From: an uncultured Collinsella sp.
GTDB taxonomy: Bacteria; Actinomycetota; Coriobacteriia; Coriobacteriales; Coriobacteriaceae
Direction of reading: 5' to 3'
Assembly (NCBI GenBank): GCA_934654585.1
Contig: CAKUGF010000014.1
Location: 1 to 51,354, forward strand
DNA length: 51,354 nucleotides
In this document: in pieces, positions 4,332 through 33,723 of the stretch
Numbering within the stretch: the stretch's first letter is position 1
Layout of the letters: each line of letters opens with the position of its first letter
Notes under the pieces: generated by a model
Told to the model about the DNA's origin: nothing
Seen by the model: the letters and a program-made list of their open reading frames with translations, nothing else
Database searches by the model: none
Program-made: the position numbers and the translations under genes

Positions 4332-4351
4332 TTTGGTCAGCTTTTGGTTTG
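4332..4351 (+). promoter_or_regulatory. Candidate competence box, copy A
   Basis: Two TTTGGT direct repeats start 11 bases apart inside a 20-bp block that recurs, 18/20 identical, at 33704-33723 before comEA. It ends 71 bases before yraN. No clear -10 box follows. The regulatory role is inferred from the shared position ahead of competence genes. Confidence 0.45.
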
Positions 4352-4422
4352 CTTCCGGTACTTACCCGCATGAAACGTGCCCTCATCATCGGGGCAATGC
4401 AGTGTGCGGGAAAGGAGACCCC

Positions 4423-4908
4423 ATGTGTGCCGCAAGCAAAAAGAGCAAGACGCAGCAGCTCAAGGAACGTTGGGAAGACGGCGAGCTCGACTGCGGGGCG
4501 ATTACGCCCGAGTTTATCAAGGCACTCAGCCCGCGCGAACTCGGCATGTTGGGCGAGCTGATCACCATCGATTACTTTAACGAGCGCGGCTACACCTTGC
4601 TGGAGCAGGGCTATCGCTGTACCGAGGGCGAGGCCGATCTGGTGCTGCTCGACGAACTCGATGACATCGTGGTGATGGCCGAGGTCAAGACGAGGCGTGT
4701 CGCCCTTGACTGCACCACGCGGGTCTTTCCCGAGGAGGCTGTGGATGCCCAAAAACAGCGTCGGTATCGTCGCATCGCGAGCTGCTATCTCATGGAGCAC
4801 TATCCGCTCAAGGCGATTCGCTTCGATGCCGTGGGCGTGACCATCCGCGGCGGGCATATCGCCGAGATCGAGCATCAGTACAACGCGTTCGATTGGCAGG
4901 TGTCGTGA
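4423..4908 (+). CDS. yraN: YraN/UPF0102 family nuclease-fold protein
   Basis: This 161-residue protein has the UPF0102 pattern GELITIDYFNERGY, then EGEADLVLLDE and MAEVKTRR, which together give the E-D-ExK residues of the restriction-endonuclease-like fold. Members are widely conserved beside comM/dprA or rnhB; their molecular role is unsettled, with a nuclease or DNA-processing function suspected. The ATG at 4423 is chosen because AAAGGAGA (4411-4418) stands 4 bases before it; upstream in-frame starts lie next to the rnhB terminator. The stop overlaps the comM start (ATGA), which suggests translational coupling. It is the first gene of the comM-dprA unit and carries the candidate competence box in its leader. 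Confidence 0.85.
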   Translation: MCAASKKSKTQQLKERWEDGELDCGAITPEFIKALSPRELGMLGELITIDYFNERGYTLLEQGYRCTEGEADLVLLDELDDIVVMAEVKTRRVALDCTTRVFPEEAVDAQKQRRYRRIASCYLMEHYPLKAIRFDAVGVTIRGGHIAEIEHQYNAFDWQVS

Positions 4909-6431
4909 TGGCTTTCGATACCTTCGCCGTCCACGCCGCCTGTATTCGCGGCGTCGAGGCAATTCCCGTTACCGTCGAGGTCTCGCTTGCCGGGGGCGTC
5001 CCGGGCATTCAGATGCTCGGTATTCCCAGTATGGAAGTAATGGAATCGCGTGGGCGCATCCGGTGCGCCATGCGCTCAGCCGGTTTTGAGATTCCGCGGT
5101 CGGGCATTACCGTCAATCTGGCACCCGGCGATATCCGTAAAACCGGCAGTGGTTTTGACCTGCCGATTGCCATCGCGGTGTTGGCAGCCGACGGGCAGAT
5201 TCCCCGCGACAACCTCGATCGCTGCCTTATTGCGGGCGAGCTTGGCCTGGACGGCACGGTGCTGCCTGTCAAGGGCGAGGTGGCGTTCCAGCTGCTGGCG
5301 CGTGATATGGGGCTTTCCTTTATCGCCGGCAAGTCCGATCAGCATGTGCCGCTCGCGGGCGTGGACTGCGGGTTTATCGGCCACCTGTCGCAACTTGCCC
5401 AGGGCATGGGTGAGGCTGCACGACATTATCTGGACTCCGAGGGCGTGGAGGCCACCTTTGAGCCCGAACTCGATTATGCCGACGTCTTGGGGCAGGAAGT
5501 CGCCAAACGTGGCATGGCGCTTGCGGCGGCAGGTGAGCTCGGCTTGCTCATGATCGGCTCGCCCGGTTCGGGCAAGACGATGCTCGCGCGGCGCATGACC
5601 GGCATTTTGCCCGAGCTATCCCTCGAGGACCAGCAGGAAGCGTTGTGCATCCATTCGGTGCTGGGAGAGAACATCGACGGGTTGCTGGCAGGACACCGAC
5701 CATTTCGCAGCCCGCACCACAGCATTTCGACTGCGGGCCTTATCGGCGGCGGACGCCCGGTGCATCCGGGCGAGATCAGCCTGGCGCATGGCGGCGTGCT
5801 CTTTTTGGACGAGCTTGCCGAGTTTCCCACCGGCGTGTTGCAGACGCTTCGTCAGCCTATCGAGCGCGGCTACGTCAAGATCGTGCGTGTCGACGGCGCC
5901 TTTACCTTCCCGTCGCGCTTTCAGTTGTTGGCCGCGAGCAATCCCTGCCCCTGCGGCTTTTTGGGCGATCGCGAGGTCCCGTGTCGCTGCTCGGCCTCGA
6001 TGGTCGAGCGCTACCGGTCCAAGCTGCGCGGTCCCTTGGCCGACCGTATCGACATGATGCTCGACGTGACCCGCCCCGACCCTCAGATAATTATCGAGGG
6101 CGCGGAGGGCATGTCGTCGGCCGAGCTGCGCGACTACGTCGTACGCGGCAGGGCCTTTCGCGCGTGGCGTGAGGCCCGCATGGACGATGCGGATACCGAG
6201 GCCGAAGATGATGAGTCGCGCTCCATTGACGGCGTCGTGTCGACCTTTGCGCTCGACGATGCGGCGGAGAAGTGCGTGCTGGGCCTGTCGAAGCGCACGC
6301 ATCTCACGGGCCGCGGTATCGTGCGCCTGGTGCGTATCGCGCGCACGATCGCCGATGTCGCCGAAAGCGAGCGGGTGATCCAGGATCATGTGCTCGAGGC
6401 TGCGATGTACCAGGGGAGGAGGGACCAATAA
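4908..6431 (+). CDS. comM: ComM-type magnesium-chelatase-like AAA+ ATPase
   Basis: This 507-residue protein belongs to the YifB/ComM family, hexameric AAA+ helicases that promote branch migration when transforming DNA recombines with the chromosome. The N-terminal domain is Lon-protease-like in fold (about 1-180; LAPGDIRKTGSGFDLPIA). The ATPase core has Walker A GSPGSGKT (217-224) and Walker B GGVLFLDE (295-302). A cysteine cluster CPCG...CRC (about 347-361) is typical of the family, and the Mg-chelatase C-terminal helical domain ends the protein. The start is the ATG overlapping the yraN stop. The stop overlaps the dprA ATG (TAATG), so yraN, comM and dprA form one coupled unit. Confidence 0.94.
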   Translation: MAFDTFAVHAACIRGVEAIPVTVEVSLAGGVPGIQMLGIPSMEVMESRGRIRCAMRSAGFEIPRSGITVNLAPGDIRKTGSGFDLPIAIAVLAADGQIPRDNLDRCLIAGELGLDGTVLPVKGEVAFQLLARDMGLSFIAGKSDQHVPLAGVDCGFIGHLSQLAQGMGEAARHYLDSEGVEATFEPELDYADVLGQEVAKRGMALAAAGELGLLMIGSPGSGKTMLARRMTGILPELSLEDQQEALCIHSVLGENIDGLLAGHRPFRSPHHSISTAGLIGGGRPVHPGEISLAHGGVLFLDELAEFPTGVLQTLRQPIERGYVKIVRVDGAFTFPSRFQLLAASNPCPCGFLGDREVPCRCSASMVERYRSKLRGPLADRIDMMLDVTRPDPQIIIEGAEGMSSAELRDYVVRGRAFRAWREARMDDADTEAEDDESRSIDGVVSTFALDDAAEKCVLGLSKRTHLTGRGIVRLVRIARTIADVAESERVIQDHVLEAAMYQGRRDQ

Positions 6432-7363
6432 TGGATGAGGGGACCTTTGAACTGCATCCCGGCGATGCGTTGTATCCCAAGACCGTTCTGGAGCTTTCGG
6501 ATGTGCCCCGGACGCTCTATGTGCGCGGGGATCCCACGGTGCTATCGACGCCCGCGCTTTCCATTATCGGTGCTCGCAAGGCCTCGCCCTATGGCCTTGC
6601 CGTGGCGGAGCTTGCGGCAAAGGTGGCGGTTGAGGCGGGGGTGACGGTGGTCTCGGGCGGTGCGGTCGGCTGCGACCAGGCATCGGGCTGGGCTGCGGTC
6701 AATGCCGGGGGTAAGCATGTCGTGGTGCTGGGGACAGGTGCCGATGTGGTCTACCCGCGCTCGAGTGCGGGGCTTATCACGCGCACGCTCGATACGGGCG
6801 GCGCGATTGTGTCGATTTCGCCATGGGGGATGGGGCCGCGTAAGTTCGCCTTTCCGCGGCGTAATCGCGTGATCGCCGCCCTGTCGCAGGCGCTCTTTGT
6901 TTCCGAGGCGGGCATGCCCTCGGGTACGTTCTCGACGGCCGAGGCCGCTATGGACTTGGGGCGCGAACTGCTCGCGGTGCCGGGCTCCATCCTGTCGCCC
7001 GAGTCGCGCGGCACCAACTACCTCATCGCCAACGGAGCCTGCTGCATCATCGACGAGGAGTCTATCGAGATGGCCATCTCGCGTATTTACGGCACCCTGC
7101 GCTACTCGCGCCCCGACGCGCCCGGTATCGCGGACCTCGACCCCGCGCAGCAAGCCGTGATGCACGCGCTGATCGCCTCGCCGCTCAAGGTCGACGACAT
7201 CGCCGCGCTCGTCTCGCTCGATGCCGTCGGCGTGCTTAAGCTCTTGGGTTCGCTCGAGCTCGAGGGACTTATCGAGCGGATGATGGATGGAAGGTATGCG
7301 CCCTCAAAGTTTGCCCTTCACGCTCAGACACCCTTCGGTCACAATGGAAAACGTGTCAATTAG
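6431..7363 (+). CDS. dprA: DNA-processing protein DprA (Smf)
   Basis: This 310-residue protein is a DprA, which protects incoming single-stranded DNA and loads RecA during transformation. The Rossmann-like core shows SIIGARKASPYG (about 44-55), VVSGGAVGCDQASG (73-86), FPRRNRVIAALS, SGTFSTAEAA and SRGTNYLIANGA. A short winged-helix-like C-terminus follows (about 235-300). The SGG-x-x-G-x-D segment departs from the common SGLARGID-AAH form, and no N-terminal SAM domain is evident. GGGGAGGAGGG (6413-6423) upstream and the overlap with the comM stop support this ATG. Unlike in Bacillus, no topA lies between dprA and trmFO. Confidence 0.9.
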   Translation: MDEGTFELHPGDALYPKTVLELSDVPRTLYVRGDPTVLSTPALSIIGARKASPYGLAVAELAAKVAVEAGVTVVSGGAVGCDQASGWAAVNAGGKHVVVLGTGADVVYPRSSAGLITRTLDTGGAIVSISPWGMGPRKFAFPRRNRVIAALSQALFVSEAGMPSGTFSTAEAAMDLGRELLAVPGSILSPESRGTNYLIANGACCIIDEESIEMAISRIYGTLRYSRPDAPGIADLDPAQQAVMHALIASPLKVDDIAALVSLDAVGVLKLLGSLELEGLIERMMDGRYAPSKFALHAQTPFGHNGKRVN

Positions 7364-7377
7364 AAAGGTGTTTGCAG

Positions 7378-8715
7378 ATGCAGTTCGATCAGGTGACGGT
7401 TATCGGTGGCGGTCTGGCGGGTTCGGAATGCGCGATCCAGCTGGCAGATCGCGGGTTTGCCGTAAAGCTGTGCGAGATGCGTCCCCAGGTGAGCTCCCCG
7501 GCTCACCATACCGATCATCTGGCCGAGCTCGTCTGTTCCAACTCGTTTAAGTCGACCCGTCCGGATTCTGCGGCGGGCTTGCTCAAGGCCGAGCTCGAGC
7601 GCATGGGCTCAGTTCTGCTCGATTGCGCCCATCGCGCGGCCGTTCCCGCCGGCGGCGCCCTGGCGGTCGACCGTGTCAAGTTTTCCGAGCTTGTCGAGGC
7701 CGAGGTTGCCGCACGCCCCAACATTGAGGTCGTTCACGGCGAGGTCACGCAGATTCCCGAGGGTCATGTGGTCATTGCCGCCGGTCCTCTGTGCTCGCCG
7801 GCGCTGAGCGAAGAGGTCATGAAGCTCGTCGGCGGCGACGCTCTGGCGTTCTTTGATGCCGCGGCCCCGATCGTCGACGCTTCCACGCTCGATATGGACG
7901 TGCTGTTCTCGCAGTCGCGCTACGAGGAGCAGGGGGGCGGTGACTATCTCAATGCTCCGCTCAACAAGGAGGAGTACGAGGCCTTTATCGAGGCGCTCAC
8001 CACGGCCGACCGTGTGGTGCTCAAGGACTTTGAGGGCGGTGACCTATTCCAGGCCTGCCAGCCCGCCGAGGAGGTTGCGCGCACCGGCAAGGATGCCATC
8101 CGCTTTGGCGCCATGAAGCCCGTCGGACTCACCGACCCGCGTACCGGACGTCGTCCCTGGGCGGCGATTCAGCTGCGCGCCGAAAACAAGGAGAAGACCG
8201 CCTATAACCTGGTGGGCTTCCAGACCAACCTGACCTTCGGCGAGCAAAAGCGCGTCTTCCATATGGTGCCGGGCCTGGAGAACGCCGAGTTCTTCCGCTA
8301 CGGCGTCATGCATCGCAATACCTTTGTCGACGCCCCGCACGTGCTCGACGGCACTTTTGCCGTGCCCGGCACGAGCGTGCGCCTTGCCGGCCAGATCACC
8401 GGCACCGAGGGGTACATGGAAGCGGTTGCGACCGGTCTGCTCGCGGCGCTCAACACCTACGCCGAGGCTATCGGGGCCGCGGGCGTCGAGCTACCGCGCG
8501 TTGGCGCCCTGGGCGCGCTCGTGGGCTATGCGACCGATCCGGCGACGGTTGGCTACCAGCCCATGCACGTTAACTTTGGCCTGGTGCCGCCGCTCGAGGA
8601 CGGCAAGCGCCGCAGCAAACGCGATCGCTACCAGGCCTATGCGGACCGCGCCCTCGAGGCCCTCGATGCCTACCTGGCCACGCGCCCCGATCTGTTTGGA
8701 GGCGACCGGTCATAG
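7378..8715 (+). CDS. trmFO: Methylenetetrahydrofolate-tRNA-(uracil-54) methyltransferase
   Basis: This 445-residue flavoprotein makes 5-methyluridine at tRNA position 54 using methylene-THF and FADH2. The dinucleotide motif VTVIGGGLAGSECA opens the protein. CSNSFKS, the GPLCSPALS stretch, ETGEEL-family segments such as ARTGKDAIRFGAMKPVGL, and the C-terminal GQITGTEGYMEA and MHVNFGLVPPL are characteristic of TrmFO rather than the related GidA/MnmG. The ATG at 7378 is preferred to a TTG two codons upstream because GAAAGGTG ends 7 bases before it. Its stop (TAG 8713-8715) overlaps the proposed AUA start of xerC. Confidence 0.95.
   Translation: MQFDQVTVIGGGLAGSECAIQLADRGFAVKLCEMRPQVSSPAHHTDHLAELVCSNSFKSTRPDSAAGLLKAELERMGSVLLDCAHRAAVPAGGALAVDRVKFSELVEAEVAARPNIEVVHGEVTQIPEGHVVIAAGPLCSPALSEEVMKLVGGDALAFFDAAAPIVDASTLDMDVLFSQSRYEEQGGGDYLNAPLNKEEYEAFIEALTTADRVVLKDFEGGDLFQACQPAEEVARTGKDAIRFGAMKPVGLTDPRTGRRPWAAIQLRAENKEKTAYNLVGFQTNLTFGEQKRVFHMVPGLENAEFFRYGVMHRNTFVDAPHVLDGTFAVPGTSVRLAGQITGTEGYMEAVATGLLAALNTYAEAIGAAGVELPRVGALGALVGYATDPATVGYQPMHVNFGLVPPLEDGKRRSKRDRYQAYADRALEALDAYLATRPDLFGGDRS
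8698..8702 (+). promoter_or_regulatory. Shine-Dalgarno that points to a non-AUG start for xerC
   Basis: GGAGG lies inside the end of trmFO, 9 bases before the AUA at 8712. The only ATG/GTG/TTG in the xerC frame, GTG 8790, is 87 bases away and has no comparable site. Confidence 0.55.
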
Positions 8716-9632
8716 CCTTTGACCTGTACGACACCGTCGACTCGTTTATCGCTTATATCGCACGCGTCGAGGGGCTTTCTCCCAATACGGTGACCGCCTA
8801 CGCATCGCGGCTGGAGCGCTTTGCGGCCTGGTGCAAACGTACATGCACCGACGCGCGCGCGGCTGACGTGCGTACCGTTCGCACGTATTTGGCCGAGCTC
8901 TCGCGAGAGCAGGTGGCACCCCGCACGCTTGCGGCGCATCTTTCGGCCATCCGATCGCTCTATCGCTGGATGGCTGCCGAGGGCATTGTGGAGGGCGATG
9001 TGGTCTCGGCGATTTCCTCGCCCAAACTCCCGCGTGATCTGCCCGGTGTGCTGACGACCCAACAGGTGGAGGCGCTCCTCAAAACCCCCGACACCGCGAC
9101 GCCCGCGGGGTTGCGCGATGCGGCGATGCTCGAGCTGCTTTATGCCTCCGGTGCGCGCATCTCGGAGCTTTCGGCGCTCAATATAGAGTCCATTGACTGG
9201 TCAGAGCGCACGCTGCGGCTGTGGGGTAAGGGGAGCAAGGAACGCATCGTCCCCCTGTATCGCCGCGCACTCGAGGCGACTCGCACCTATGTCGAAGAGG
9301 GGAGACCGGCACTGCTCGCCCAGGCAAAGCATCGCGATGCCGCGAGCGGTCTGCATCCGCTGTTTATCTCGGCGCGCGGCAACCGCATGGGCGCCGCCAT
9401 GCTCAGGCGACGCTTTCATATGTTGGCGACGCTCGCCGGCATTCCGGCGGACATCGCCCCGCATGCGATGCGCCACACGTTTGCGACCGATCTGCTCGAG
9501 GGTGGCGCGGACCTGCGTTCGGTGCAGGAACTGCTGGGACACGCGAGCCTGTCCACGACGCAGATCTATACGCATCTCACGCCCGATCGGCTTAAGCGCG
9601 CCGTTGCTCAGGCCCATCCCCGTGGCGAGTAG
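8712..9632 (+). CDS. xerC: Tyrosine recombinase XerC-type, probable AUA start
   Basis: This is a Xer family site-specific recombinase that resolves chromosome dimers. With the start at AUA 8712 it has 306 residues, close to the usual ~298. The N-terminal SAM-like DNA-binding domain has FIAYIARVEGLSPNTVTAY at about 12-30, at the same offset as in E. coli XerD. The catalytic set is Arg149 (SGARISEL), Lys176 (GKGSKER), His251 and Arg254 (HAMRHTF), His277 (GHASLS) and nucleophile Tyr286 (TQIYTHL). Starting instead at GTG 8790 would remove 26 residues of the conserved N-terminal helix. XerC versus XerD is assigned from the trmFO neighbourhood. The body of the gene is secure; the start codon is inferred. 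Confidence 0.88.
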   Translation: MAFDLYDTVDSFIAYIARVEGLSPNTVTAYASRLERFAAWCKRTCTDARAADVRTVRTYLAELSREQVAPRTLAAHLSAIRSLYRWMAAEGIVEGDVVSAISSPKLPRDLPGVLTTQQVEALLKTPDTATPAGLRDAAMLELLYASGARISELSALNIESIDWSERTLRLWGKGSKERIVPLYRRALEATRTYVEEGRPALLAQAKHRDAASGLHPLFISARGNRMGAAMLRRRFHMLATLAGIPADIAPHAMRHTFATDLLEGGADLRSVQELLGHASLSTTQIYTHLTPDRLKRAVAQAHPRGE

Positions 9633-9681
9633 AAAGTGGTTCACGCGCTGAGTCGCCAAGGTGTGTGGTTTTGATTGCGGG

Positions 9682-9710
9682 TTGGCAGGACGAGGTAATC
9701 CTGCTATCAT
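9682..9710 (+). promoter_or_regulatory. Promoter of rpsB-tsf
   Basis: TTGGCA (9682-9687) and TATCAT (9705-9710) with a 17-base spacer, immediately after xerC. This implies a leader of roughly 135 bases. Confidence 0.75.
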
Positions 9711-9717
9711 TCATCGG

Positions 9718-9851
9718 GTTGCTTCACGGCAACAGGTTTTTATCACGCACGCGCGGCTACTTCATACCGTGGTGCCCGGGCTTTGGTAGCACATGTCCGG
9801 GTTGGTTTTGGAGGATGACCCCGCGCGGAGGCAAACCACAGGAGGTTTAAC
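9718..9851 (+). promoter_or_regulatory. Long rpsB 5' leader
   Basis: About 134 untranslated bases precede rpsB. Arms CCCGG (9775-9779) and CCGGG (9797-9801) can pair, and G/T-rich stretches before the Shine-Dalgarno could fold further. Feedback control by S2 is known in other bacteria; nothing here proves it. No other gene is visible in the interval. Confidence 0.35.
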
Positions 9852-10580
9852 ATGGCTACCAAGATTAATATCCGCACCCTGCTCGAGGCCGGCTGCCACT
9901 TCGGTCACCAGACCCGTCGCTGGAACCCCAAGATGAAGCCGTTCATCTTCGGTGAGCGCAACGGCATCTACATCCTCGACCTCAAGCAGACCATCCTCGA
10001 CGCCGACCAGGCCTACACCTTCGTCAAGAACGTCGCCAAGGGTGGCAACGTGCTGTTCGTCGGCACCAAGAAGCAGGCTCAGGAGGCCGTCAAGAACGCC
10101 GCTGAGCGCGCCAACATGCCTTACATCAACCAGCGTTGGCTCGGCGGTATGCTGACCAACTTCGTGACCATCCGCTCCCGCATCAACCGCATGGAGGAGC
10201 TCGAGGCCATGGTCGAGGACGGTCGCATGGCTGTTCTGCCCAAGAAGGAGCAGGCTGTTCTGGGTAAGGAGCTCGCTAAGCTCCAGACCAACCTCGGTGG
10301 CGCCCGCGATATGAAGGGTCTGCCCCAGGCTCTCTTCGTCATTGACACCAAGCGCGAGGAGAACGCCATCAAGGAGGCCCAGCGCCTGAACATCCCCGTC
10401 GTCGCTCTGATCGACACCAACTCCGATCCCGACGAGGTCGAGTACGGCATCCCCTGCAACGATGACGCTATCTCCGCTGTCACCCTTATGTGCGAGCTCA
10501 TGGCCGACGCCTGCCTCGCTGGCTCCGGCAAGGAGCAGGTCTCCGAGGCCGAGATGGCCGCTGAGCCCAAGGCCGAGTAA
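9852..10580 (+). CDS. rpsB: 30S ribosomal protein S2
   Basis: This 242-residue protein is S2, a late-assembling 30S protein that recruits S1-type mRNA-binding proteins in some species. Landmarks are [20 protein letters not shown], the [10 protein letters not shown] segment, [11 protein letters not shown], and [27 protein letters not shown]. The acidic tail is short. AGGAGGT (9840-9846) precedes the ATG. It is co-transcribed with tsf, 45 bases downstream, the classical rpsB-tsf pair. Confidence 0.98.
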
Positions 10581-10625
10581 ATCAGTCTTAGTTAATTCTT
10601 TTTCATCTCTTTGAAAGGAACCACA

Positions 10626-11495
10626 ATGGCCCAGATTACCGCCGCTATGGTCAAGCAGCTCCGCGAGATGACCGACTCCCCGATGATGGAGTGCAAGAAG
10701 GCTCTCGTCGAGGCTGACGGCGACATGGACGCCGCTGTCGACGTTCTGCGCAAGAACGGCCTTGCCAAGGCTGCCAAGAAGGCTGGCCGTGAGACCAACG
10801 AGGGCGCTGTCGCCGCGTTCGTCTCCGAGGATGGCAAGTCCGGCGCTCTGCTCGAGCTCTCCTGCGAGACCGACTTCGTCGGCTCCAACGCCAAGTTCAC
10901 CGGCTTTGCTTCCAAGGTCGCTGAGGTTGTCGCCACCACCGAGCCGACAGACGTCGACGCTCTGCTCGAGAAGCCGATGGGCGAGGAGACCGTTTCCTCT
11001 GAGCTCACCGAGATGATTCACATCATGGGCGAGAACATGAAGGTCGCTCGTTTCGCCGCTCGCAAGGCTGAGAATGGCGCCCTCGCTTCTTACATCCACA
11101 TGGGTGGTAAGATCGGCGTCCTCGTCGAGTTCGCCTTCGAGAAGGCCGAGACCGCTCAGGCCGAGTCCTTCAAGACCTTTGCTCACGACGTTGCCCTTCA
11201 GGTTGCCGCCGTCGCCCCGATCTGCGCTACTCGCGATCAGGTTCCGGCCGAGACCGTCGAGCACGAGAAGCAGATCTACATGGCTCAGGCTGCCGAGTCC
11301 GGCAAGCCCGAGGCCATCCAGGAGAAGATGGCTGTCGGCCGTCTGGAGAAGTTCTACAAGCAGTCCGTGCTCACTGAGCAGGAGTTCATCAAGGACAGCT
11401 CCCTCACCATCAAGAAGTACGCTGAGCAGGTCTCCAAGGAGCTCGGCGATACCATTACCGTCGTTGCCTTTGACCGTCTGGTCCGTGGCGAGTAA
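10626..11495 (+). CDS. tsf: Elongation factor Ts
   Basis: This 289-residue protein is the guanine-nucleotide exchange factor for EF-Tu. The N-terminal UBA-like domain is followed by the exchange segment: MTDSPMMECKKALVEADGD matches the usual TGAGMMDCKKAL pattern. SCETDFVGSN is the conserved NCETDFVA motif, and the coiled-coil and C-terminal modules end with the RLEKFYKQ region. Gly-Ala of the usual TGAG is replaced by Asp-Ser. The ATG at 10626 is chosen because AAAGGAA (10614-10620) stands before it; the frame is open five codons further up. A strong terminator follows. Confidence 0.97.
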   Translation: MAQITAAMVKQLREMTDSPMMECKKALVEADGDMDAAVDVLRKNGLAKAAKKAGRETNEGAVAAFVSEDGKSGALLELSCETDFVGSNAKFTGFASKVAEVVATTEPTDVDALLEKPMGEETVSSELTEMIHIMGENMKVARFAARKAENGALASYIHMGGKIGVLVEFAFEKAETAQAESFKTFAHDVALQVAAVAPICATRDQVPAETVEHEKQIYMAQAAESGKPEAIQEKMAVGRLEKFYKQSVLTEQEFIKDSSLTIKKYAEQVSKELGDTITVVAFDRLVRGE

Positions 11496-11518
11496 ATAAG
11501 CTCTTGTAGCTGGTAATG

Positions 11519-11553
11519 AGCAGGCTGTGGGTTTTACTCACAGCCTGCTTTTT
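11519..11553 (+). terminator. rpsB-tsf terminator
   Basis: An 11-bp perfect stem AGCAGGCTGTG/CACAGCCTGCT with a 9-base loop continues into TTTTC. Confidence 0.9.
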
Positions 11554-11574
11554 CATGGCTCTTCGTAGAGCCTT

Positions 11575-11583: not shown

Positions 11584-11613
11584 GTTGAGAGTTCAATCTA
11601 AAGGAGGATCGCT

Positions 11614-24007: not shown

Positions 24008-24784
24008 ATGCCCCGATGCGCCCGCGCCGTTTCGCTCACCGGCTATTACCATGTCTATGACCGCGGCAATTCCAAACAGATTATTTTTGAAGATGACTCC
24101 GACCGCTATCGTTTTTTATCGGATATCTCGGACAGGTTCGCGTGCCATGAAGTGGCGGTGTTGGCTTGGTGCCTTATGGACAATCACTTCCATTTGATGG
24201 TTGATGATCCATTTGACAATCTTTCAAAGGCGATGCAGTGCGCATTGACGGCATATGCGAAGTATTTCAATAGGAAAACGGGAAGAACGGGACATCTGTT
24301 TGACAATCGCTATTCGCGGGTCGCGGTTGAGTCGGACACGCAGGCGGTGCAACTGCTCGACTATATTCATCTCAATCCCGTGAAAGGTGCGCTCGACTCG
24401 CTCGAGGCGTACCGCTGGTCAAGCTTCAAGGCATATCAGCTGGGCTACGATCCCTTTGACATCTGCGACGCGACCCCTATGCTCGATATTGTCGGAGGCT
24501 CCCGTTGCTATTGCGAGCATCTCGAGGAAGTTGCCGGGCGCATCTTGTCGGTGGAAGTTCTTCCACGCCGACGGATTCCAGATGAGGAGGCCCTTTCCGT
24601 TGCGCGTGAAGTCCTGCCGAGCATAGATCCTGCACTGCTCAAGGCCCTGCCGCGCTCCGAACGCGATGCCTGTTTGCTGAGGCTCAGGCGGGCGCATCTC
24701 ACGGTCAAGCAGATTGCCCGTATCACCGGTATCGGCGCTACAAGCGTGACCAAGGCCACTGCAGGCTGGAAGGAGGCTGCGTGA
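24008..24784 (+). CDS. REP-associated tyrosine transposase (Y1/IS200-like)
   Basis: This 258-residue protein belongs to the Y1 HUH single-strand transposases, RAYT branch. YHVYDRGNSKQIIF, then CLMDNHFHLMVDD with the HxH metal pair His60/His62, TGRTGHLFDNRYSRV and LLDYIHLNPVKGAL are the family blocks; Tyr119 is the likely nucleophile. WSSFKAYQLG and a C-terminal helix-turn-helix (LTVKQIARITGIGATSVTKAT) follow. GAAAGGAGAGG precedes the ATG. No frameshift is seen, so the gene may be active. RAYTs usually move short flanking palindromic repeats, which fits the repeats around it. Confidence 0.9.
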   Translation: MPRCARAVSLTGYYHVYDRGNSKQIIFEDDSDRYRFLSDISDRFACHEVAVLAWCLMDNHFHLMVDDPFDNLSKAMQCALTAYAKYFNRKTGRTGHLFDNRYSRVAVESDTQAVQLLDYIHLNPVKGALDSLEAYRWSSFKAYQLGYDPFDICDATPMLDIVGGSRCYCEHLEEVAGRILSVEVLPRRRIPDEEALSVAREVLPSIDPALLKALPRSERDACLLRLRRAHLTVKQIARITGIGATSVTKATAGWKEAA

Positions 24785-26200: not shown

Positions 26201-27145
26201 GTGGCGTTCAACCATAAGCACCTGATCGACATTACCGAGTACTCCGAAGAGGACATTAAGCTCATCCTCGAGACCGCCAAGGCGTTCTCCGAGGTCAACG
26301 AGCGTGCCATCAAGAAGGTCCCCACGCTCAAGGGCAAGACCATCGTTAACATGTTCAACGAGCCCTCGACGCGTACCCGCAGCTCCTTCGAGCTCGCCGA
26401 GAAGCGTCTTTCGGCCGACAGCCTCAACTTCGGCGGCTCCTCGACCTCCACGGTCAAGGGCGAGAGCCTCGTCGATACCGTCGAGACCCTCAACGCCTAC
26501 AAGATCGACTGCATCGTCGTGCGCGACAAGCACGCCGGCGCTCCCTACATCGTCACGCAGAACTCGCCCGCGAGCGTCATCTGCGCCGGCGACGGTAAGC
26601 ACAACCACCCCACGCAGGCCCTGCTGGACCTGTACACCATCTGGGAGCATAAGGGTGACTTCCACGGTCTGAAGGTCGCCGTCGTCGGCGATATCGCCCA
26701 CTCCCGCGTCTGCGGCTCGCTGATTCCCGCCCTTAAGATCATGGGCTGCGAGACTTACGCCGTCGCCCCCGGCACGCTGCTGCCGCCGGCACCCGATGTC
26801 CTGGGCTGCGATCATGTGACGAGCGACCTCGATTCCGTCCTGCCCGAGCTGGACGTTGTCTATATGCTGCGCGTGCAGCAGGAGCGCCTCGAGGGTGCCC
26901 CGTTCCCGACCATTCGCGAGTACCACAAGCTCTTCGGCCTGACCAAGGACCGCGAGAAGCTCATGAAGCCCGACGCGATCATCTGCCACCCGGGCCCCAT
27001 CAACCGCGGCGTCGAGTTCGACTCCTATATGGCCGACCACCCGCAACGCTCCGTCATCCTGGAGCAGGTCTACGCCGGTATCTGCGTGCGTATGGCTATC
27101 CTGTATCTGCTGCTTGGAGGTGCCGATAATGGCCTTGCTTCTTAA
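26201..27145 (+). CDS. pyrB: Aspartate carbamoyltransferase catalytic chain
   Basis: This 314-residue enzyme joins carbamoyl phosphate and aspartate, the committed step of pyrimidine synthesis. FNEPSTRTRSSFELA (52-66) binds carbamoyl phosphate; HPTQALLDLYTI, VGDIAHSRVCGS and CHPGPINRGVEF are further ATCase blocks. GTG 26201 is preferred to GTG 26189 because GGGAGGTGAG lies 8-10 bases before it, while the earlier codon would overlap that site. No pyrI regulatory gene is present, so a simple catalytic trimer is expected. The end overlaps pyrC by 17 bases. Confidence 0.96.
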   Translation: MAFNHKHLIDITEYSEEDIKLILETAKAFSEVNERAIKKVPTLKGKTIVNMFNEPSTRTRSSFELAEKRLSADSLNFGGSSTSTVKGESLVDTVETLNAYKIDCIVVRDKHAGAPYIVTQNSPASVICAGDGKHNHPTQALLDLYTIWEHKGDFHGLKVAVVGDIAHSRVCGSLIPALKIMGCETYAVAPGTLLPPAPDVLGCDHVTSDLDSVLPELDVVYMLRVQQERLEGAPFPTIREYHKLFGLTKDREKLMKPDAIICHPGPINRGVEFDSYMADHPQRSVILEQVYAGICVRMAILYLLLGGADNGLAS

Positions 27146-28418
27146 GAATGCCCACGTCGTCGACCCGTCCGTCGAGCTTGACGGTGTCGTTGACGTCCTG
27201 ATCGACGGCGACAAGATCGCCGAGGTCGGCGAGAATCTCGCCGCCGAGGGAGCCGAGGTCCGCGACCTTTCCGGCAAGTACCTCGTCCCCGGCCTGGTGG
27301 ACATGCACGTCCATCTGCGTGAGCCCGGCTATGAGGTCAAAGAGGACATCGAGAGCGGTACCCGCGCTGCTGCCAAGGGCGGCTTTACCGGTGTGTGCGC
27401 CATGCCCAACACCGACCCCGTCACCGACAACGGCACCGTCGTGGAGTTCGTCAAGTCCCGCGCTGCCGAGGTCGGCCACTGCCGCGTCTATCCTTCGGGC
27501 GCCATGACCCGCGGTCTTAAGGGCGAGGCCATGTCCGAGATGGGCGATATGGTCGCCCGCGGTGCCGTCGCCTTTACCGATGACGGTCGCGGCGTGCAGG
27601 GCGCGGGCATGCTCCGTCGCTGCATGGACTACGGCAAGATGTTCGGCAAGGTCTTCATGAGCCATTGCCAGGACGAGGACCTGGTCGGTCATGGCCAGAT
27701 CAACGAGGGCAAGGTCTCGACTCGTCTGGCCCTCGAGGGCTGGCCGGCGGCAGGCGAGGAGCTTCAGATCGCCCGCGACATCGAGATCGCCAAGCTGACC
27801 GGTGCCAAGCTGCACATCCAGCACATCTCCACGGCCCACGGCCTGGAGCTCGTTCGTGCCGGTAAGGCCGCTGGCGTTCAGGTCACCTGCGAGGCTACCC
27901 CGCACCACATGTTCCTGACCGAGAACGACCTGGACGAGACCTACAACACCTCGCTCAAGGTCAACCCGCCGCTGCGTACCGACGAGGACGCCGAGGCTAT
28001 CCGCCAGGGCGTCATCGACGGCACCGTCGACGCTATCGTCACCGACCACGCTCCCCACACCCCGTGGGAGAAGGCCCGCGAGTTCGAGCTTGCGCCCTTT
28101 GGCATGATCGGCCTCGAGACCTCGCTGGCACTCGTGCTCACCGAGCTGGTCAATACCGGCAAGATGAGCATGGGCCGCATGGTCGAGCTCATGGCCATCA
28201 AGCCGCGTGAGATCCTGGGCCTTGACCAGGTCCAGGTCAAGGCGGGCTCCGTCGCTGACCTGACCGTGTTCGATCCCACCGTCACCTGGACGGTCGGCGA
28301 GGACGGCTACGAGTCGCGCGCCGAGAACTCCGGTTTTGCCGGCCGCACGCTCACCGGCCGTGCCACCGATGTGTTTGTCGGCGGCAAGCAGACGCTTGCC
28401 GACGGCTGCATCTGCTAG
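27129..28418 (+). CDS. pyrC: Dihydroorotase
   Basis: This 429-residue zinc amidohydrolase closes carbamoyl-aspartate to dihydroorotate (class I type). GLVDMHVHLREPG carries metal ligands His60 and His62; MSHCQD, IQHISTAH and VTDHAPH hold the remaining ligands and the catalytic Asp. GGAGGTG (27118-27124 region) lies before the ATG, inside the end of pyrB. The downstream gap to pyrK is 92 bases, the largest in the operon, with no terminator-like hairpin. Confidence 0.96.
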   Translation: MALLLKNAHVVDPSVELDGVVDVLIDGDKIAEVGENLAAEGAEVRDLSGKYLVPGLVDMHVHLREPGYEVKEDIESGTRAAAKGGFTGVCAMPNTDPVTDNGTVVEFVKSRAAEVGHCRVYPSGAMTRGLKGEAMSEMGDMVARGAVAFTDDGRGVQGAGMLRRCMDYGKMFGKVFMSHCQDEDLVGHGQINEGKVSTRLALEGWPAAGEELQIARDIEIAKLTGAKLHIQHISTAHGLELVRAGKAAGVQVTCEATPHHMFLTENDLDETYNTSLKVNPPLRTDEDAEAIRQGVIDGTVDAIVTDHAPHTPWEKAREFELAPFGMIGLETSLALVLTELVNTGKMSMGRMVELMAIKPREILGLDQVQVKAGSVADLTVFDPTVTWTVGEDGYESRAENSGFAGRTLTGRATDVFVGGKQTLADGCIC

Positions 28419-28510
28419 CATAGCCTTATCGCTTTTGTGCGCGGCGCCCTTGCGGTGCCGCGCTTTCTGTTCGTTTGGTCCATGCAATCGCATGGGGGAT
28501 TGGAGCGTCT

Positions 28511-29302
28511 ATGCCCACACCTTCCACTGCACGCATGCACGACTTCGAGGTCGTCTCGAACCAGGAGATCGCCGACGGCATCTTCTCGCTCGTTATCTCG
28601 GCCCCCAAGCTTGCAAGTGCGCTCAAGCCCGGTCAGTTCGTGAATATCGCCGTGCCCGGCGATGCGTCCTCGCTGCTTCGCGTGCCCCTGAGCTTCTATC
28701 GCGCCGACGCCGAGGCCGGCACCGTCGAGCTGTGGTACGCCGTCGTGGGCGACGATACCCGTCGTCTGTCGCAGATGGCCCCTGGCTCCACCTCCAACCT
28801 GCTGGGCCCTGGCGGTCGCGGCTGGCTCGTTCCCGAGGGCACCAGGAAGGCGCTGCTCGTTGCCGGCGGCATCGGCGTTCCGCCCGTGCTCTGCCTGGCC
28901 GGTATGCTTGCCGAGCAGGGCGTGGACGTCGACGTGTGCTTGGGCTTTGGTACCGCGTCCAAGGCCGTGGGCGTCGATGAGTTCCGCGCGCTGGGCGCCA
29001 CGGTCAACGTGTGCACCGACGACGGCACGCTGGGCACGCACGGTTTCTGCACCGATCCTGCCGCCGAGCTGCTTGACGAGGGCGGTTACGACTACGTCGC
29101 CAGCTGCGGTCCCGCCGTCATGATGAAGAAGGTCGCCGTCGCTGCCGCCGAGGCCGGCGCGTATTGCGAGGTGTCGCTCGAGCGCATGATGAGCTGCGGC
29201 TTTGGCGCCTGCAACACCTGCAACGTCGAGACGGTCGACGGTATGAAGGGCGCCTGCATGTGCGGCCCCGTGTTTGATGCTTCCAAGGTGGTGGTCTTCT
29301 AG
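28511..29302 (+). CDS. pyrK: Dihydroorotate dehydrogenase electron-transfer subunit
   Basis: This 263-residue iron-sulfur flavoprotein passes electrons from dihydroorotate oxidation by PyrD to NAD+. It has the ferredoxin-reductase-type FAD site RVPLSFYR (57-64), the NAD-binding GGIGVPPVLCLA (119-130), and a [2Fe-2S] C-terminus with Cys229, Cys234, Cys237 and Cys249 or Cys251. The ATG follows a purine-rich GGGGGATTGGAG; an open frame of 12 more codons upstream lacks such a site. TAG of pyrK overlaps GTG of pyrD (TAGTG), so subunit synthesis is coupled. Confidence 0.94.
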   Translation: MPTPSTARMHDFEVVSNQEIADGIFSLVISAPKLASALKPGQFVNIAVPGDASSLLRVPLSFYRADAEAGTVELWYAVVGDDTRRLSQMAPGSTSNLLGPGGRGWLVPEGTRKALLVAGGIGVPPVLCLAGMLAEQGVDVDVCLGFGTASKAVGVDEFRALGATVNVCTDDGTLGTHGFCTDPAAELLDEGGYDYVASCGPAVMMKKVAVAAAEAGAYCEVSLERMMSCGFGACNTCNVETVDGMKGACMCGPVFDASKVVVF

Positions 29303-30225
29303 TGGGTACCGTGAACATGGCCGTCGATTTCGGCGGCGTCAAGATGCAGAACCCCATCAACACCGCAGCCGGTACCTTTGGCTACGGTTGGCAGTTCCAG
29401 AACTTCTTTGATGTGTCCCAGCTGGGCGCCATCACCACCAAGGGTTGCGCAGCCGAGCCCTGGCCCGGCAACCCCGCACCCCGCATGGCCGAGATTCCCG
29501 GCGGCATGATCAACTCCGTGGGTCTGCAGAACCCCGGCGTCGCCGCCTTCGCCCGTGAGTCCGGTCCGTGGCTCGAGCAGCTTTCCAAGGACGGCTGCCA
29601 GGTCATCTGCCAGGTTGCCGGCCACTCCGTCGAGGAGTTTGTTCGCGCGCTCGAGATGTATGTCGAGCTGTGCCCCTGGGCTGCCGGCTACGAGATCAAC
29701 GTGAGCTGCCCCAACATCGCCGCCGGCGGTGCCGCCATGGGCTCCACGCCCGAGGGCGCCTCTGCCGTCATGGCCGCCTGCCGCAAGGTGACTGACAAGC
29801 CGCTGTTCGTGAAGATGGCTCCGGTCAACGTCGCCGAGATCGCCAAGGCCCTCGAGGCTGCTGGTGCCGACGGTCTTTCGGTCATCAACTCCATCCAGGG
29901 TATGGCTATTGACGTCCACACCCGCAAGTCGCGCGTGGCCAAGCCCAAGGGCGGCCTTTCGGGCCCGCTGTGCCACCACATCGCCGTGCGTATGGTCTGG
30001 GAGGTTGCCCAGGCCGTCGATATCCCCATCAACGGTGTTGGCGGCGTCATGACCGGTGAGGACGCGGCCGAGTTTATCCTGGCTGGCGCCACCTGCGTGT
30101 CGGTCGGCATGGCCAACTTCGTCGACCCGTGCGCTTCGCTCAAGATCGCGCATGAGCTCGAGGCCTGGGCCGAGTCCCAGGGCGTGAAGGACATCAACGA
30201 GCTGGTAGGTGCGTTCGAATGCTAG
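29302..30225 (+). CDS. pyrD: Dihydroorotate dehydrogenase, class 1B catalytic subunit
   Basis: This 307-residue FMN enzyme oxidises dihydroorotate to orotate. KMQNPINTAAGTFGYG starts the barrel, INSVGLQNPG binds substrate, and the active-site base Cys136 in INVSCPNIAAGG marks a class 1 enzyme. NGVGGVMTGEDAAEFILAGA binds FMN phosphate. Presence of pyrK makes it class 1B, NAD+-linked, suited to an anaerobe. The GTG start overlaps the pyrK stop, with AAGGTGG 10 bases upstream; a GTG three codons on is possible. The end overlaps pyrF by 7 bases. Confidence 0.96.
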   Translation: MGTVNMAVDFGGVKMQNPINTAAGTFGYGWQFQNFFDVSQLGAITTKGCAAEPWPGNPAPRMAEIPGGMINSVGLQNPGVAAFARESGPWLEQLSKDGCQVICQVAGHSVEEFVRALEMYVELCPWAAGYEINVSCPNIAAGGAAMGSTPEGASAVMAACRKVTDKPLFVKMAPVNVAEIAKALEAAGADGLSVINSIQGMAIDVHTRKSRVAKPKGGLSGPLCHHIAVRMVWEVAQAVDIPINGVGGVMTGEDAAEFILAGATCVSVGMANFVDPCASLKIAHELEAWAESQGVKDINELVGAFEC

Positions 30226-30935
30226 AGACCGATGCCCGCGACCGCGTTATCGTCGCTCTCGACTGCGACCGTGAGCGTGCGCTCGAGCTCGCCCGCGAGC
30301 TTTCGGGTCACGCTGCCTGGCTTAAGGTCGGCATGACGCTCTATTACGCCGAGGGCCCTGAGATCGTCAAGACGTTCAAGGACCTGGGCTTTAAGGTCTT
30401 CCTCGACCTTAAGTTCCACGATATTCCGCATCAGGTGCGCGGTGCCGCCCGTTCGGCCTCGCTTGCCGGCGCCGACCTGCTTTCGGTCCACGGTCTGGGC
30501 TCGGGCGCTATGCTCGCCGCCTGCCGCGAGGGCGCCGAGGAGGCGCGCGAGGACCGCGCCAAGCTCGTCGCCATCACCGTGCTCACGAGCATGAACCAGG
30601 ATTCGCTCAGCGAGATCGGCATTGAGTCGCCGGTGGCCGAGGAGGCCGCGCGTCTGGCAAAGCTCGCCCAGGCCAACGGTATCGACGGCATCGTGTGCTC
30701 GCCGATGGAGGCCCACGATATGCGTGAGCTGCTGGGCCCCGATGCGCTCATCGTGACCCCGGGTGTTCGTCCGGTTGGTGCGGCGCTGGGAGATCAGTCC
30801 CGCGTGGCCACGCCTTCCCAGGCTATCGAGCGCGGCGCGAGCCATATCGTAGTGGGCCGTCCCATCACCGGCGCCGACGATCCTGTCGCCGCCTTTGATG
30901 CCATCGTCGCCGAGCTGGTCGAAAACGTCGCGTAA
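30219..30935 (+). CDS. pyrF: Orotidine 5'-phosphate decarboxylase
   Basis: This 238-residue barrel enzyme converts OMP to UMP. The catalytic array is in FLDLKFHDIPHQV (Asp63, Lys65, Asp68). RVIVALDCD, LKVGMTLYYAEG and the phosphate loop VTPGVRPVGAALGDQSR are typical. It starts inside pyrD (ATGCTAG overlap). It is the last gene of the operon. Orotate phosphoribosyltransferase (pyrE), needed between PyrD and PyrF, and carAB are not in the window. Confidence 0.97.
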   Translation: MLETDARDRVIVALDCDRERALELARELSGHAAWLKVGMTLYYAEGPEIVKTFKDLGFKVFLDLKFHDIPHQVRGAARSASLAGADLLSVHGLGSGAMLAACREGAEEAREDRAKLVAITVLTSMNQDSLSEIGIESPVAEEAARLAKLAQANGIDGIVCSPMEAHDMRELLGPDALIVTPGVRPVGAALGDQSRVATPSQAIERGASHIVVGRPITGADDPVAAFDAIVAELVENVA

Positions 30936-30980
30936 AAGATTCCCTTAAGTCACCACTTTTGGGTCTCATTAGCACAATTT

Positions 30981-31038
30981 AGCCCCTGTGCCTGCGAAAA
31001 CTTTCCCATCCTTTGTGTGGAATCGCAGGTCAGGGGCT
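30981..31038 (+). terminator. Long-loop hairpin after pyrF
   Basis: AGCCCCT and CCTGCGA pair with TCGCAGG and AGGGGCT across a small internal loop and a 25-base apical loop; CAACTTTT follows. Likely the pyr operon terminator, although the loop is unusually long. Confidence 0.5.
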
Positions 31039-31101
31039 CAACTTTTAGCGCAATATATTGCACTTTTTGCGGGTATCGTCTAACCTATGGAGCCGCGATT
31101 G

Positions 31102-31133
31102 GGCATTTTGTACGTTTTACGTGCTAAAATGCC
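31102..31133 (+). promoter_or_regulatory. Inverted repeat over the mihF promoter
   Basis: GGCATTTT and AAAATGCC flank 16 bases and enclose the extended -10 box, so a bound dimer would block the promoter. Autoregulation by the gene product is conceivable. Confidence 0.4.
31122..31130 (+). promoter_or_regulatory. Extended -10 promoter of mihF
   Basis: TGCTAAAAT is 44 bases before the mihF ATG; the -35 position is poor. Confidence 0.55.
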
Positions 31134-31174
31134 AAATATTGAATCAGATATAACCCAACTATTTGGAGGTACGA

Positions 31175-31483
31175 ATGGCACTCCCTCAGCTTACCGACGA
31201 GCAGCGCAAGCAGGCTCTTGAGAAGGCTGCTGCCGCACGTCACGCCCGCGCTGAGCTTCGCGAGCAGATCAAGAAGGGCGAGAAGTCCCTCGAGTCCGTG
31301 CTCAACTCCGATGACCCCATCGCTTCCCGCATGAAGGTTTCCACCCTCATCGAGTCCCTCCCCGGCTATGGCAAGGCCAAGGCCGCCAAGATCATGGAGG
31401 AGCTCGGCATCTCCGCTACCCGTCGCGTCCAGGGCCTCGGCGTCCGTCAGCGCGAGCAGCTCCTCGAGCAGCTGACCAAATAA
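31175..31483 (+). CDS. mihF: Integration host factor, actinobacterial type
   Basis: This 102-residue DNA-bending nucleoid protein matches mIHF of Actinobacteria: MALPQLTDEQRKQALEKAA, a helical arm (AAARHARAELREQIKKGEKSL), then the helix-two-turn-helix part MKVSTLIESLPGYGKAKAAKIMEELGI and TRRVQGLGVRQRE. It is unrelated to the IhfA/IhfB fold and is a good taxonomic marker. TTTGGAGGT precedes the ATG. It directly precedes gmk (TAAGTG junction), as in mycobacteria and streptomycetes. Confidence 0.95.
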   Translation: MALPQLTDEQRKQALEKAAAARHARAELREQIKKGEKSLESVLNSDDPIASRMKVSTLIESLPGYGKAKAAKIMEELGISATRRVQGLGVRQREQLLEQLTK

Positions 31484-32053
<570 letters not shown>

Positions 32054-32058
32054 GGTCC

Positions 32059-32340
32059 GTGTCCGTTGTAAAGCCTTGCATTGACGATCTTCTGGAGAAG
32101 ACCGATCACAACCGCTTCCTGCTCGCTTCGCTTGCTTCCAAGCGTGCCTGCGACATCAATAGCATGCTGCGTGGCCAGCACAACCGCGTGCTTGCCGTTC
32201 AGGATGTCGATGACATCACCATCGGTCTTTCTGGTGCCGATACCATCTCGATGGCTATGGACGAGATCGTCGACGGCGATATCTCCTACGACGAGGCCCG
32301 TTATGAGAAGGCGCTCGGCCACAAGGTTGCTGAAGCCTAA
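32059..32340 (+). CDS. rpoZ: RNA polymerase omega subunit
   Basis: This 93-residue protein has the omega pattern: KPCIDDLLEKTDHNRFLLAS, SKRACDINSM, then the acidic DEIVDGDISYDEARYEKALG tail. Omega helps assemble beta' and in some bacteria binds ppGpp. The GTG start has AAAGGATCTGAGG upstream. Its stop codon is directly followed by the thiI ATG. Confidence 0.92.
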   Translation: MSVVKPCIDDLLEKTDHNRFLLASLASKRACDINSMLRGQHNRVLAVQDVDDITIGLSGADTISMAMDEIVDGDISYDEARYEKALGHKVAEA

Positions 32341-33585
32341 ATGGCAGCTCGCGTCTGCCTGGTCCACTATCACGAGGTTGGACTGAAGGGCAAGAACCGC
32401 GCACATTTTGAGCATATCCTCATGGATAACATCAAGGCGGCTTTGGCCGCCTTTTCCGTGAATGCCGTGTCTCGAATTTCCGGTTATATCCTCGTGACCT
32501 TTAACGAGCATCAGGCTGACGAGGCGGCGCGTGTCATTCGCACCGTTCCCGGCGTCGCCCGTGTGTCCCTGGCATACCACACCAACCGCGACCCGCAGGA
32601 GTACTGCGCCGCCGCCGTCAAGGCGCTGCGCGAGTTCGGTCCCTTTGATTCGTTTAAGGTGCATGCCAAGCGCTCCAACACCGACTACGAGCTCACTTCC
32701 ATCGATATCAATCGACAGGTGGGCGAGGTGCTGTGCGAGGCGTTTCCCGATAAAAAGGTCCAGATGCACGACCCCGATGCGATGGTGCACGTGCTGGTGG
32801 TCCAGGGCAGCGTCTACGTGTACGCGCGCTCCGAGCGCGGCGTGGGCGGTCTGCCGGTAGGTTCTGCCGGTAAGGTCGTGACGCTGCTGTCCTCGGGCAT
32901 CGACTCGCCGGTGGCGACCTGGATGCTCGCACGTCGCGGTGCGGTATGCGTGCCGGTGCATTTCTCCGGTCGTCCGCAGACGCCCGATACGAGTGAGTAT
33001 CTGGTGCAGGACATCATCCGCGCCCTTGAGCCGGGCGTCCAGATCGGCCGCCTGTACGTGGTGCCGTTTGGCGATTGCCAGCGTGAGATTTCGGTCACCT
33101 GTCCCAGCAACCTGCGCGTGATCATGTATCGCCGCATCATGTATTCGGTTGCCGAGCGTATTGCGAACATCGAAGGCGCCAAGGCCATCGTGACCGGTGA
33201 GTCGCTTGGCCAGGTCGCCTCCCAGACGCTCGAGAACATCATGGCCGTCAACGAGGCCGTGAAGATTCCCGTGTTCCGCCCGCTCATCGGTTCGGATAAA
33301 CAGGAGATCATTGCGCGCGCCCAGGAGATCGGTACGTTCGATATCTCGACCGAGGCTGCGCCCGACTGCTGCACGCTGTTTATGCCGCGCCGTCCCGAGA
33401 CGCATGCCAAGCTCGACGCCGTGCACGAGGCCTGGGAGCTGTTCGATCACGAGGAGATGGTCGAGCGTCTGCTTAAGCAGACCGAGTACATCGACTTCGA
33501 GAGCAATACGTATAAGGCCCCCAAGACCTTAAAACGCAAACATTCGGAGCTTGCTCCGCGTGAGATTTACCAAGATCACGAGTAA
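32341..33585 (+). CDS. thiI: tRNA 4-thiouridine synthase ThiI
   Basis: This 414-residue enzyme adenylates U8 of tRNA for sulfur transfer and may feed sulfur to thiazole synthesis. HYHEVGLKGKNR opens an N-terminal ferredoxin-like region, a THUMP domain follows to about 165, and the PP-loop is SSGIDSP (184-190). TGESLGQVASQTLENI and PDCCTLFMPRRPET are typical of the catalytic domain. There is no C-terminal rhodanese domain, so sulfur must come through another cysteine, as in Gram-positive ThiI. It ends the mihF-gmk-rpoZ-thiI unit at a good terminator. Confidence 0.95.
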   Translation: MAARVCLVHYHEVGLKGKNRAHFEHILMDNIKAALAAFSVNAVSRISGYILVTFNEHQADEAARVIRTVPGVARVSLAYHTNRDPQEYCAAAVKALREFGPFDSFKVHAKRSNTDYELTSIDINRQVGEVLCEAFPDKKVQMHDPDAMVHVLVVQGSVYVYARSERGVGGLPVGSAGKVVTLLSSGIDSPVATWMLARRGAVCVPVHFSGRPQTPDTSEYLVQDIIRALEPGVQIGRLYVVPFGDCQREISVTCPSNLRVIMYRRIMYSVAERIANIEGAKAIVTGESLGQVASQTLENIMAVNEAVKIPVFRPLIGSDKQEIIARAQEIGTFDISTEAAPDCCTLFMPRRPETHAKLDAVHEAWELFDHEEMVERLLKQTEYIDFESNTYKAPKTLKRKHSELAPREIYQDHE

Positions 33586-33595
33586 TTGCCTGCAT

Positions 33596-33628
33596 AAACC
33601 GACGATGCGTTTGTATCGTCGGTTTTTT
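33596..33628 (+). terminator. thiI terminator
   Basis: An 11-bp stem AAACCGACGAT/ATCGTCGGTTT with an 8-base loop runs into TTTTTT. Confidence 0.9.
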
Positions 33629-33703
33629 GCTATCTGGGCATTTGGCATCAAACTGTTCATTCGCTGACGTGTGCCTGAATAAATGGACAGATTTGCGCAA
33701 GGT

Positions 33704-33723
33704 TTTGGTCGGCATTTGGTTTG
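33704..33723 (+). promoter_or_regulatory. Candidate competence box, copy B
   Basis: TTTGGT repeats begin at 33704 and 33715, 11 bases apart, in a block 18/20 identical to 4332-4351. It ends 76 bases before comEA, nearly the same distance as copy A before yraN. No ordinary -10 box is recognisable downstream. Confidence 0.45.

Follow-up and report, generated by a model that had tools for sequence, protein, structure and literature searches.

The window, a 51,354-nucleotide stretch of contig CAKUGF010000014.1 from an uncultured Collinsella sp., carries two operons of competence-type genes on its forward strand, to which all window coordinates below refer. The first comprises yraN (4423–4908; UPF0102, Pfam PF02021) and the gene calls for comM (4908–6431; Mg-chelatase-type AAA, PF01078, PF13541 and PF13335) and dprA (6431–7363; PF02481 and PF17782). 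The second comprises comEA (33800–34510; SLBB and HHH domains, PF10531 and PF12836) and comEC (34495–36810; Competence domain and metallo-beta-lactamase fold domain, PF03772 and PF00753), whose start is uncertain, at either 34495 or 34603. These Pfam matches confirm the gene names of the original prediction, an earlier reading of the letters alone, which proposed that both operons share a box bound by a competence activator. We describe the arrays to which these boxes belong, and a candidate activator that combines a STAND NTPase with a SARP domain.

The 20-mers at 4332–4351 and 33704–33723 are identical at 18 of 20 positions, each holds TTTGGT twice at 11-bp spacing, and 71 and 76 bases separate their ends from the start codons (ATG) of yraN (4423) and comEA (33800), all as originally noted. 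In neither leader was a sigma-70-like promoter found, in agreement with the lack of a recognisable -10 box reported then. What had been missed is that the repeat extends upstream of both boxes, so that each site consists of three in-register 11-bp units, head to tail, in an array of 33 bp, the best unit being TTTGGTCAGCT. The predicted activator array of yraN-comM-dprA, at 4321–4353, reads TTTTGTCGGCA TTTGGTCAGCT TTTGGTTTGCT, and that of comEA-comEC, at 33693–33725, reads TTGCGCAAGGT TTTGGTCGGCA TTTGGTTTGAC. A terminator-like hairpin behind rnhB (4281–4320) sends its T-run into the first unit of the yraN array, and another, behind thiI (33596–33625), lies upstream of the comEA array.

Among 33 window leaders, cut by a rough gene caller that also supplied the start codons, only two register pairs reached 18/20, each of them matching the yraN leader with the comEA leader: the pair already described, and 33701 with 4318, one unit earlier. 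Any 18/20 pair was seen in just 1 of 60 shuffled leader sets. The box pattern (up to three mismatches) matched the window three times, against a mean of 0.03 for 100 dinucleotide shuffles. A unit matrix was built from 48 units at 16 sites of a related chromosome (G025, below); with it, three-unit scores were 27.5 for the yraN array and 18.1 for the comEA array, with the next best window piece at 8.9, and the yraN array ranked third among the 1478 piece-strand combinations scanned.

Box genes of the aerofaciens group

In the genome nearest to the window (G001, with 20% of sampled words in common), TTTGGTN5TTTGGT with at most one mismatch matched 21 times, against three for the backward control. 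Across 58 genomes the strict pattern gave 81 matches, against a single control match, so that it is not as frequent at random loci; matches were confined to 16 genomes, all among the 35 of the same genus, with 1–8 in each.

The complete G025 chromosome, also of the aerofaciens group, gave 27 matches with up to three mismatches, at 22 places, vs. seven for the control. Twenty of the 22 places were inspected (1351567 and 1661201 were left out) and 16 kept; the other four were set aside as chance, three inside called genes (L137, L142 and L144) and one intergenic, without further units (L139). At 13 of the 16 kept sites a co-oriented called gene begins 76–216 bp downstream; for the remaining three (L131, L132 and L133) the caller gave no gene so near and open frames were read instead. 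The array-bearing loci include yraN-comM-dprA, comEA-comEC, recA, rpsF-ssb and the Tad/Flp pilus operon. The recA leader has a four-unit array and a separate LexA-type box closer to the gene. The Tad/Flp locus begins with cpaB, followed by ParA-type (TadZ-like) and T2SSE-type (TadA-like) genes. A Mutator-family transposase gene lies between the array and cpaB in G025 (L129, 1661–2977), and may have cut the Tad operon off from its operator there. By eye, inverted units face the forward array at both cpaB (L129) and prmC (L140), a bidirectional layout comparable to the reversed array in the regulator leader described below.

Besides prmC, the other box genes encode an IS200-like (RAYT-type) transposase, a thioester/SpaA adhesin and a small HTH regulator. 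An IS200-like transposase gene also lies in the window, at 24008–24781, without a high-scoring box, while the one in G025 (L136) has one. The adhesin gene (L141, 1612–5040; thioester domain and SpaA fold) has both a box and the 20-bp element that follows the yraN array, and its expression may be coupled to competence. The box genes at L125 and L130 encode two proteins that are related to each other and match AbiEi weakly; the products of L131 in G025 and L016 in G001 are likewise related to one another, and their nuclease-type matches, to DUF559/MTES_1575, fall below cut-off. In G025 the L132 stretch is interrupted by stops, and its G001 counterpart, L016, is an open frame. Genes at L127 and L134 had no match over cut-off.

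The 20-bp element, TCCGGTACTTACCCGCATGA, lies at 4354–4373, at a fixed position directly 3' of the yraN array. Searched as GTACTTACCCGCATGA with at most one mismatch, it matched 23 times over all eight aerofaciens-group genomes searched, with no control match, and 11-bp units preceded it in the same register at all 20 of the 23 loci that were read. It is common to two or three loci per genome, standing in fixed register behind the arrays of yraN, of the adhesin gene and, in G025, of a nuclease-like gene. It is possibly a core promoter or a second binding site.

We also scanned one genome per species from 84,980 species with 18 fixed letters. Fifty stretches matched, 26 of them in Collinsella or Coriobacteriaceae records, and every one of these 26 precedes a box gene as judged by translation (yraN 14, comEA 9, recA 1, cpaB 1, and one for a 235-residue unknown). 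The remaining 24 are spread among unrelated taxa.

Period and unit letters beyond the aerofaciens group

The proposal that the box precedes orthologous genes held within the aerofaciens group and failed beyond it: no box with at most one mismatch was present in the 19 remaining genomes of the genus or in 23 from other families, where the same operons bear 11-bp arrays of other units. We followed up the 19 same-genus genomes and 10 of other families, picked for lacking the box. comEA, recA and comM were each found in all 29, and CpaB in 28. In many of their leaders there are repeats at 11-bp spacing built from clade-specific units, among them TGTCGG, GTCAG, GCGGAAGGTTC, GCTGGAA, TTTGGAA and GTGACAGAAAA. 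A run of about seven 11-bp units of GGTCGG/GTCAGG type was noted before yraN in one other-family genome (G051; L164, L226), with more before comEA.

A tied three-unit array was fitted per genome at periods of 8–15 to the leaders of recA, comEA and yraN. Period 11 was best in 18/27 genomes (10/19 same-genus and 8/8 from other families), with a mean score of 26.4 compared with 17.5–19.6 at other periods. When rpsF and cpaB leaders were added, period 11 was best in 18/29 (8/10 from other families), with a mean of 33.1 vs. 21.2–23.3. Some leaders were dropped: recA of G051 and G038 (interrupted or cut) and cpaB of G024 (short upstream), while G038 had no CpaB match. In autocorrelation, lag 11 was the highest for comEA leaders (0.300, null 0.266, sd 0.006); for recA leaders it stood at 0.284 against 0.259 (sd 0.007), with lag 15 at 0.281, lag 22 at 0.282, and lag 33, at 0.287, exceeding it.

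Models trained on recA, comEA and yraN leaders were then applied to held-out leaders, a genome being counted as well trained when its 11-bp model outscored every other period by more than 3. Among well-trained genomes the array was recovered in 8/15 cpaB leaders, against four for the reverse strand and two for each of two nonsense readings; poorly trained genomes gave 1/12 (reverse 2, nonsense 0 and 0). The reverse strand failed as a control at cpaB, possibly because of the inverted units seen there by eye in G025, and backward and complement readings were therefore added. Since the array is recovered in held-out cpaB leaders, the Tad pilus is probably under the same control as the uptake genes; in Micrococcus luteus the available text reports a Tad pilus to be required for transformation (PMC4322843). 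For rpsF-ssb, clear signs of shared control are limited to the aerofaciens group and a small number of other genomes. In poorly trained genomes rpsF gave 3/13 forward (reverse 1, nonsense 2 and 1).

Several of these results speak against a common 11-bp operator. The best period was other than 11 in 9/27 genomes, all of them of the same genus. Outside the aerofaciens group rpsF was weak even in well-trained genomes, at 3/16 forward with one on the reverse strand and 0 and 1 in the nonsense readings. Taken over all genomes, forward and reverse counts were nearly level, at 9/27 and 8/27 for cpaB and 5/29 and 4/29 for rpsF. On balance we judge that the arrays are very probably the operators of a competence-type regulon. 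The original suggestion of a competence-activator site is thus supported, as far as such readings go, and extended to a larger gene set and to other unit letters.

The candidate STAND-SARP activator and its rivals

The candidate binding protein is a STAND-SARP protein of Coriobacteriales (G025:C1:1222696–1225692) of about 1000 residues, with a STAND NTPase, helical repeats, and a C-terminal SARP domain, resembling AfsR, in which an OmpR-type winged helix directly precedes BTAD, the SARP signature. BTAD (PF03704) scored 35.4 bits (cut-off 22.1); the winged helix (PF00486) scored 22.7 bits in the protein scan, below its cut-off of 26.2, and 26.2, over cut-off, in the genome scan. An AfsR fold match covers residues 732–993. 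The SARP domain occupies residues ~740–999 of 999, whereas the small and large SARPs described carry it at the N-terminus; we therefore treat the regulator as a SARP-domain protein with reversed domain order rather than as a classical SARP. It was found in 33/35 genomes, one per Collinsella genome searched, and it diverges where the box changes.

Three lines of evidence tie this protein to the arrays. The first is geometry: SARP sites are described as direct repeats spaced by 11 or 22 bp, and the arrays have such spacing. The second is that its own leader carries a reverse-strand array in four aerofaciens-group genomes (G001, G025, G008 and G012) and, with much thinner evidence, outside that group in G002, G023 and G047. 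The third is the recognition helix, which appears to co-vary modestly with the unit. Helix ARNNLYSTISRLR goes with unit TTTGGTCAGCT, GRE-LYVTLS-LR is found in five genomes with GTCGG/TTCGG-type units, and VWS-type helices in G038, G052 and G043 accompany units holding TGGA. Over 17 genomes the helix–unit Mantel correlation was 0.40 (p 0.0006), or 0.27 (p 0.03) after removal of RecA distance. The Collinsella helices had been seen before the unit list was fixed, so this co-variation is support, not a blind test. AfsR is described, in the part of its literature available, as reading bases with T88 and R92. At the equivalent positions the aerofaciens group has S and R; in other Collinsella they are V, A, T, S or G at the first position and S, A or T at the second.

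Set against this protein are the following. It was read from relatives of the window genome. The BTAD model alone is unspecific, with matches in 10/14 control genomes, seven of them over cut-off. G051, which has arrays before comEA and yraN, has no detected SARP-domain protein; likewise none was found in G044, which is 78% complete. The own-leader array is weak outside the aerofaciens group (three-unit test, 3/15 reverse vs. 1/15 forward; held-out test on well-trained genomes, 4/14 reverse vs. one forward, with nonsense readings at 2 and 0; poorly trained genomes, 2/10 forward, reverse 1, nonsense 1 and 1), and in G036 and G038 it runs forward, not reverse. G009 combines the GTCGG-group helix with another listed unit, G041 has a VWA helix with a unit lacking TGGA, and allowing a free register lowers the Mantel correlation to 0.27 (p 0.02), or 0.21 (p 0.05) after RecA. 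Finally, in the SARP family, according to the portion of the literature available, the 3' repeat lies at a fixed distance of 8 bp from the -10 element, and no fixed-distance -10 box could be shown at the window sites. By eye, a unit lies 9–10 bp before TAGGAT or CATACT in the leaders of some recA and yraN genes in other Collinsella. As an anchored unbiased scan gave no clear peak and column statistics only hints, we make no claim of a constant -10 distance.

Another owner of the arrays would be a response regulator of OmpR/PhoB type, the competence activator then being the output of a two-component system. Such regulators have the same DNA-binding fold, and PhoB binds direct repeats 11 bp apart. 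G025 encodes ten over-cut-off Trans_reg_C proteins besides the SARP. The unit, though, is not the same in G025 as in G023, yet four of the ten have G023 orthologues that are 69–93% identical with near-identical recognition helices; these four cannot explain the unit switch and were ruled out. Five others have no close G023 orthologue, and the tenth (L277) was excluded from the comparison. No response regulator is among the box-bearing genes run through Pfam, and we regard this explanation as unlikely.

Presence of recA and ssb in the regulon would also suit a DNA-damage response, with the arrays bound by a WYL-type HTH regulator, either PafBC-like or the box-bearing one at G025:226797. A three-unit array lies in the leader of the latter, a 261-residue HTH protein whose C-terminal half was taken for WYL by eye; it has no WYL match in Pfam or NCBIfam. 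The mycobacterial RecA-NDp consensus was not enriched upstream of recA, where 2/27 leaders reached 10/12 letters against 0.7 expected, with means equal to those of shuffles, and a PafBC regulon was rejected. Damage control is already provided at recA by its own LexA-type box, which follows the LexA consensus, CGAAC-N4-GTTCG; the array is distinct from this box, which excludes the latter as the shared site. Moreover, comEA/EC, Tad and dprA are genes of uptake or transformation, and PafBC, in the available account, reads one non-palindromic element (PMC6789036) rather than 11-bp arrays. A damage regulator of this kind seems quite improbable.

That the arrays are genuine operators of some protein outside all these classes would accommodate G051, with its arrays and no SARP found; the SARP-like geometry, the leader arrays and the helix–unit co-variation argue the other way, and we give this very little credence. 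That the boxes are DNA-uptake sequences or mobile-repeat remnants is scarcely credible: they do lie near competence genes, and an additional, almost identical stretch of 20 bp recurs at two or three loci of each genome, but uptake sequences number hundreds to thousands per genome, far above the few strict matches counted here, and neither the co-oriented genes downstream nor unit letters that evolve at a constant period would be expected. The consensus sequences of the ComK AT-boxes and the ComX cin-box are unlike the 11-bp units; no search was made for either.

Binding of the arrays by the STAND-SARP protein is thus, in our judgement, likely, and the combined reading, of competence-regulon operators bound by a STAND-SARP activator, is rather likely. 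The arrays, their places and period, the regulator's domains and conservation and the arrays in its leader are direct observations of sequence. From these, the STAND-SARP protein is the most likely activator; it would bind the arrays, binding would activate, and the outcome would be competence. In this scheme the 11-bp units would be half-sites, arranged head to tail along a single face of the DNA; several copies of the one activator would occupy them and bring in RNA polymerase at promoters that are weak without it. Some signal would turn the N-terminal switch, and the switched protein would turn on DNA uptake (comEA/EC and the Tad pilus) together with protection and recombination of the incoming DNA (ssb, dprA, comM and recA). 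It would also turn on some accessory genes and act on its own gene.

Comparison with described SARP and competence systems

MalT-type STAND regulators end in a LuxR-type HTH, whereas the Collinsella regulator ends in a SARP domain. The large SARP AfsR of Streptomyces coelicolor, as described in the accessible part of PMC10936776, has its SARP domain at the N-terminus, not the C-terminus, and acts in antibiotic control through two units, whereas here the genes are of competence type and three or more units are common. The operator of the SARP-LAL regulator PimR is given in the portion available of PMC5930380 as three CGGCAAG heptamers with 4-bp spacers, close to the GGCAAG and GTCAAG units found at 11-bp spacing in Collinsella; one target gene, pimM, is named for it there, in contrast to the multi-operon regulon proposed here.

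In competence, the nearest likeness is to M. luteus, which, from the parts available of PMC4322843 and PMC12849477, uses comEA/comEC plus Tad/Flp pili, as here. The accessible text of the latter, a 2026 paper, states that competence control in Actinomycetota is little known, with upstream signals and the regulatory cascade yet to be identified. The available portion of a 2021 M. luteus mutant-screen paper (PMC8467076) never uses the word SARP. Among the papers listed in searches of the open-licence literature, none dealt, by title and abstract, with competence control in Coriobacteriia or with this regulon. The SARP family itself is known; its reversed domain order and this target set are not described in the open-licence literature searched.

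A named protein, an operator and a target list can now be tested in a common genus of the human gut. If the proposal is right, the STAND-SARP protein would be a candidate switch for natural competence in Collinsella, and the regulon would be an example in which the letters of the operator were replaced while its architecture was kept. DNA uptake would then be added to the roles of the SARP family, which is known above all from antibiotic clusters.

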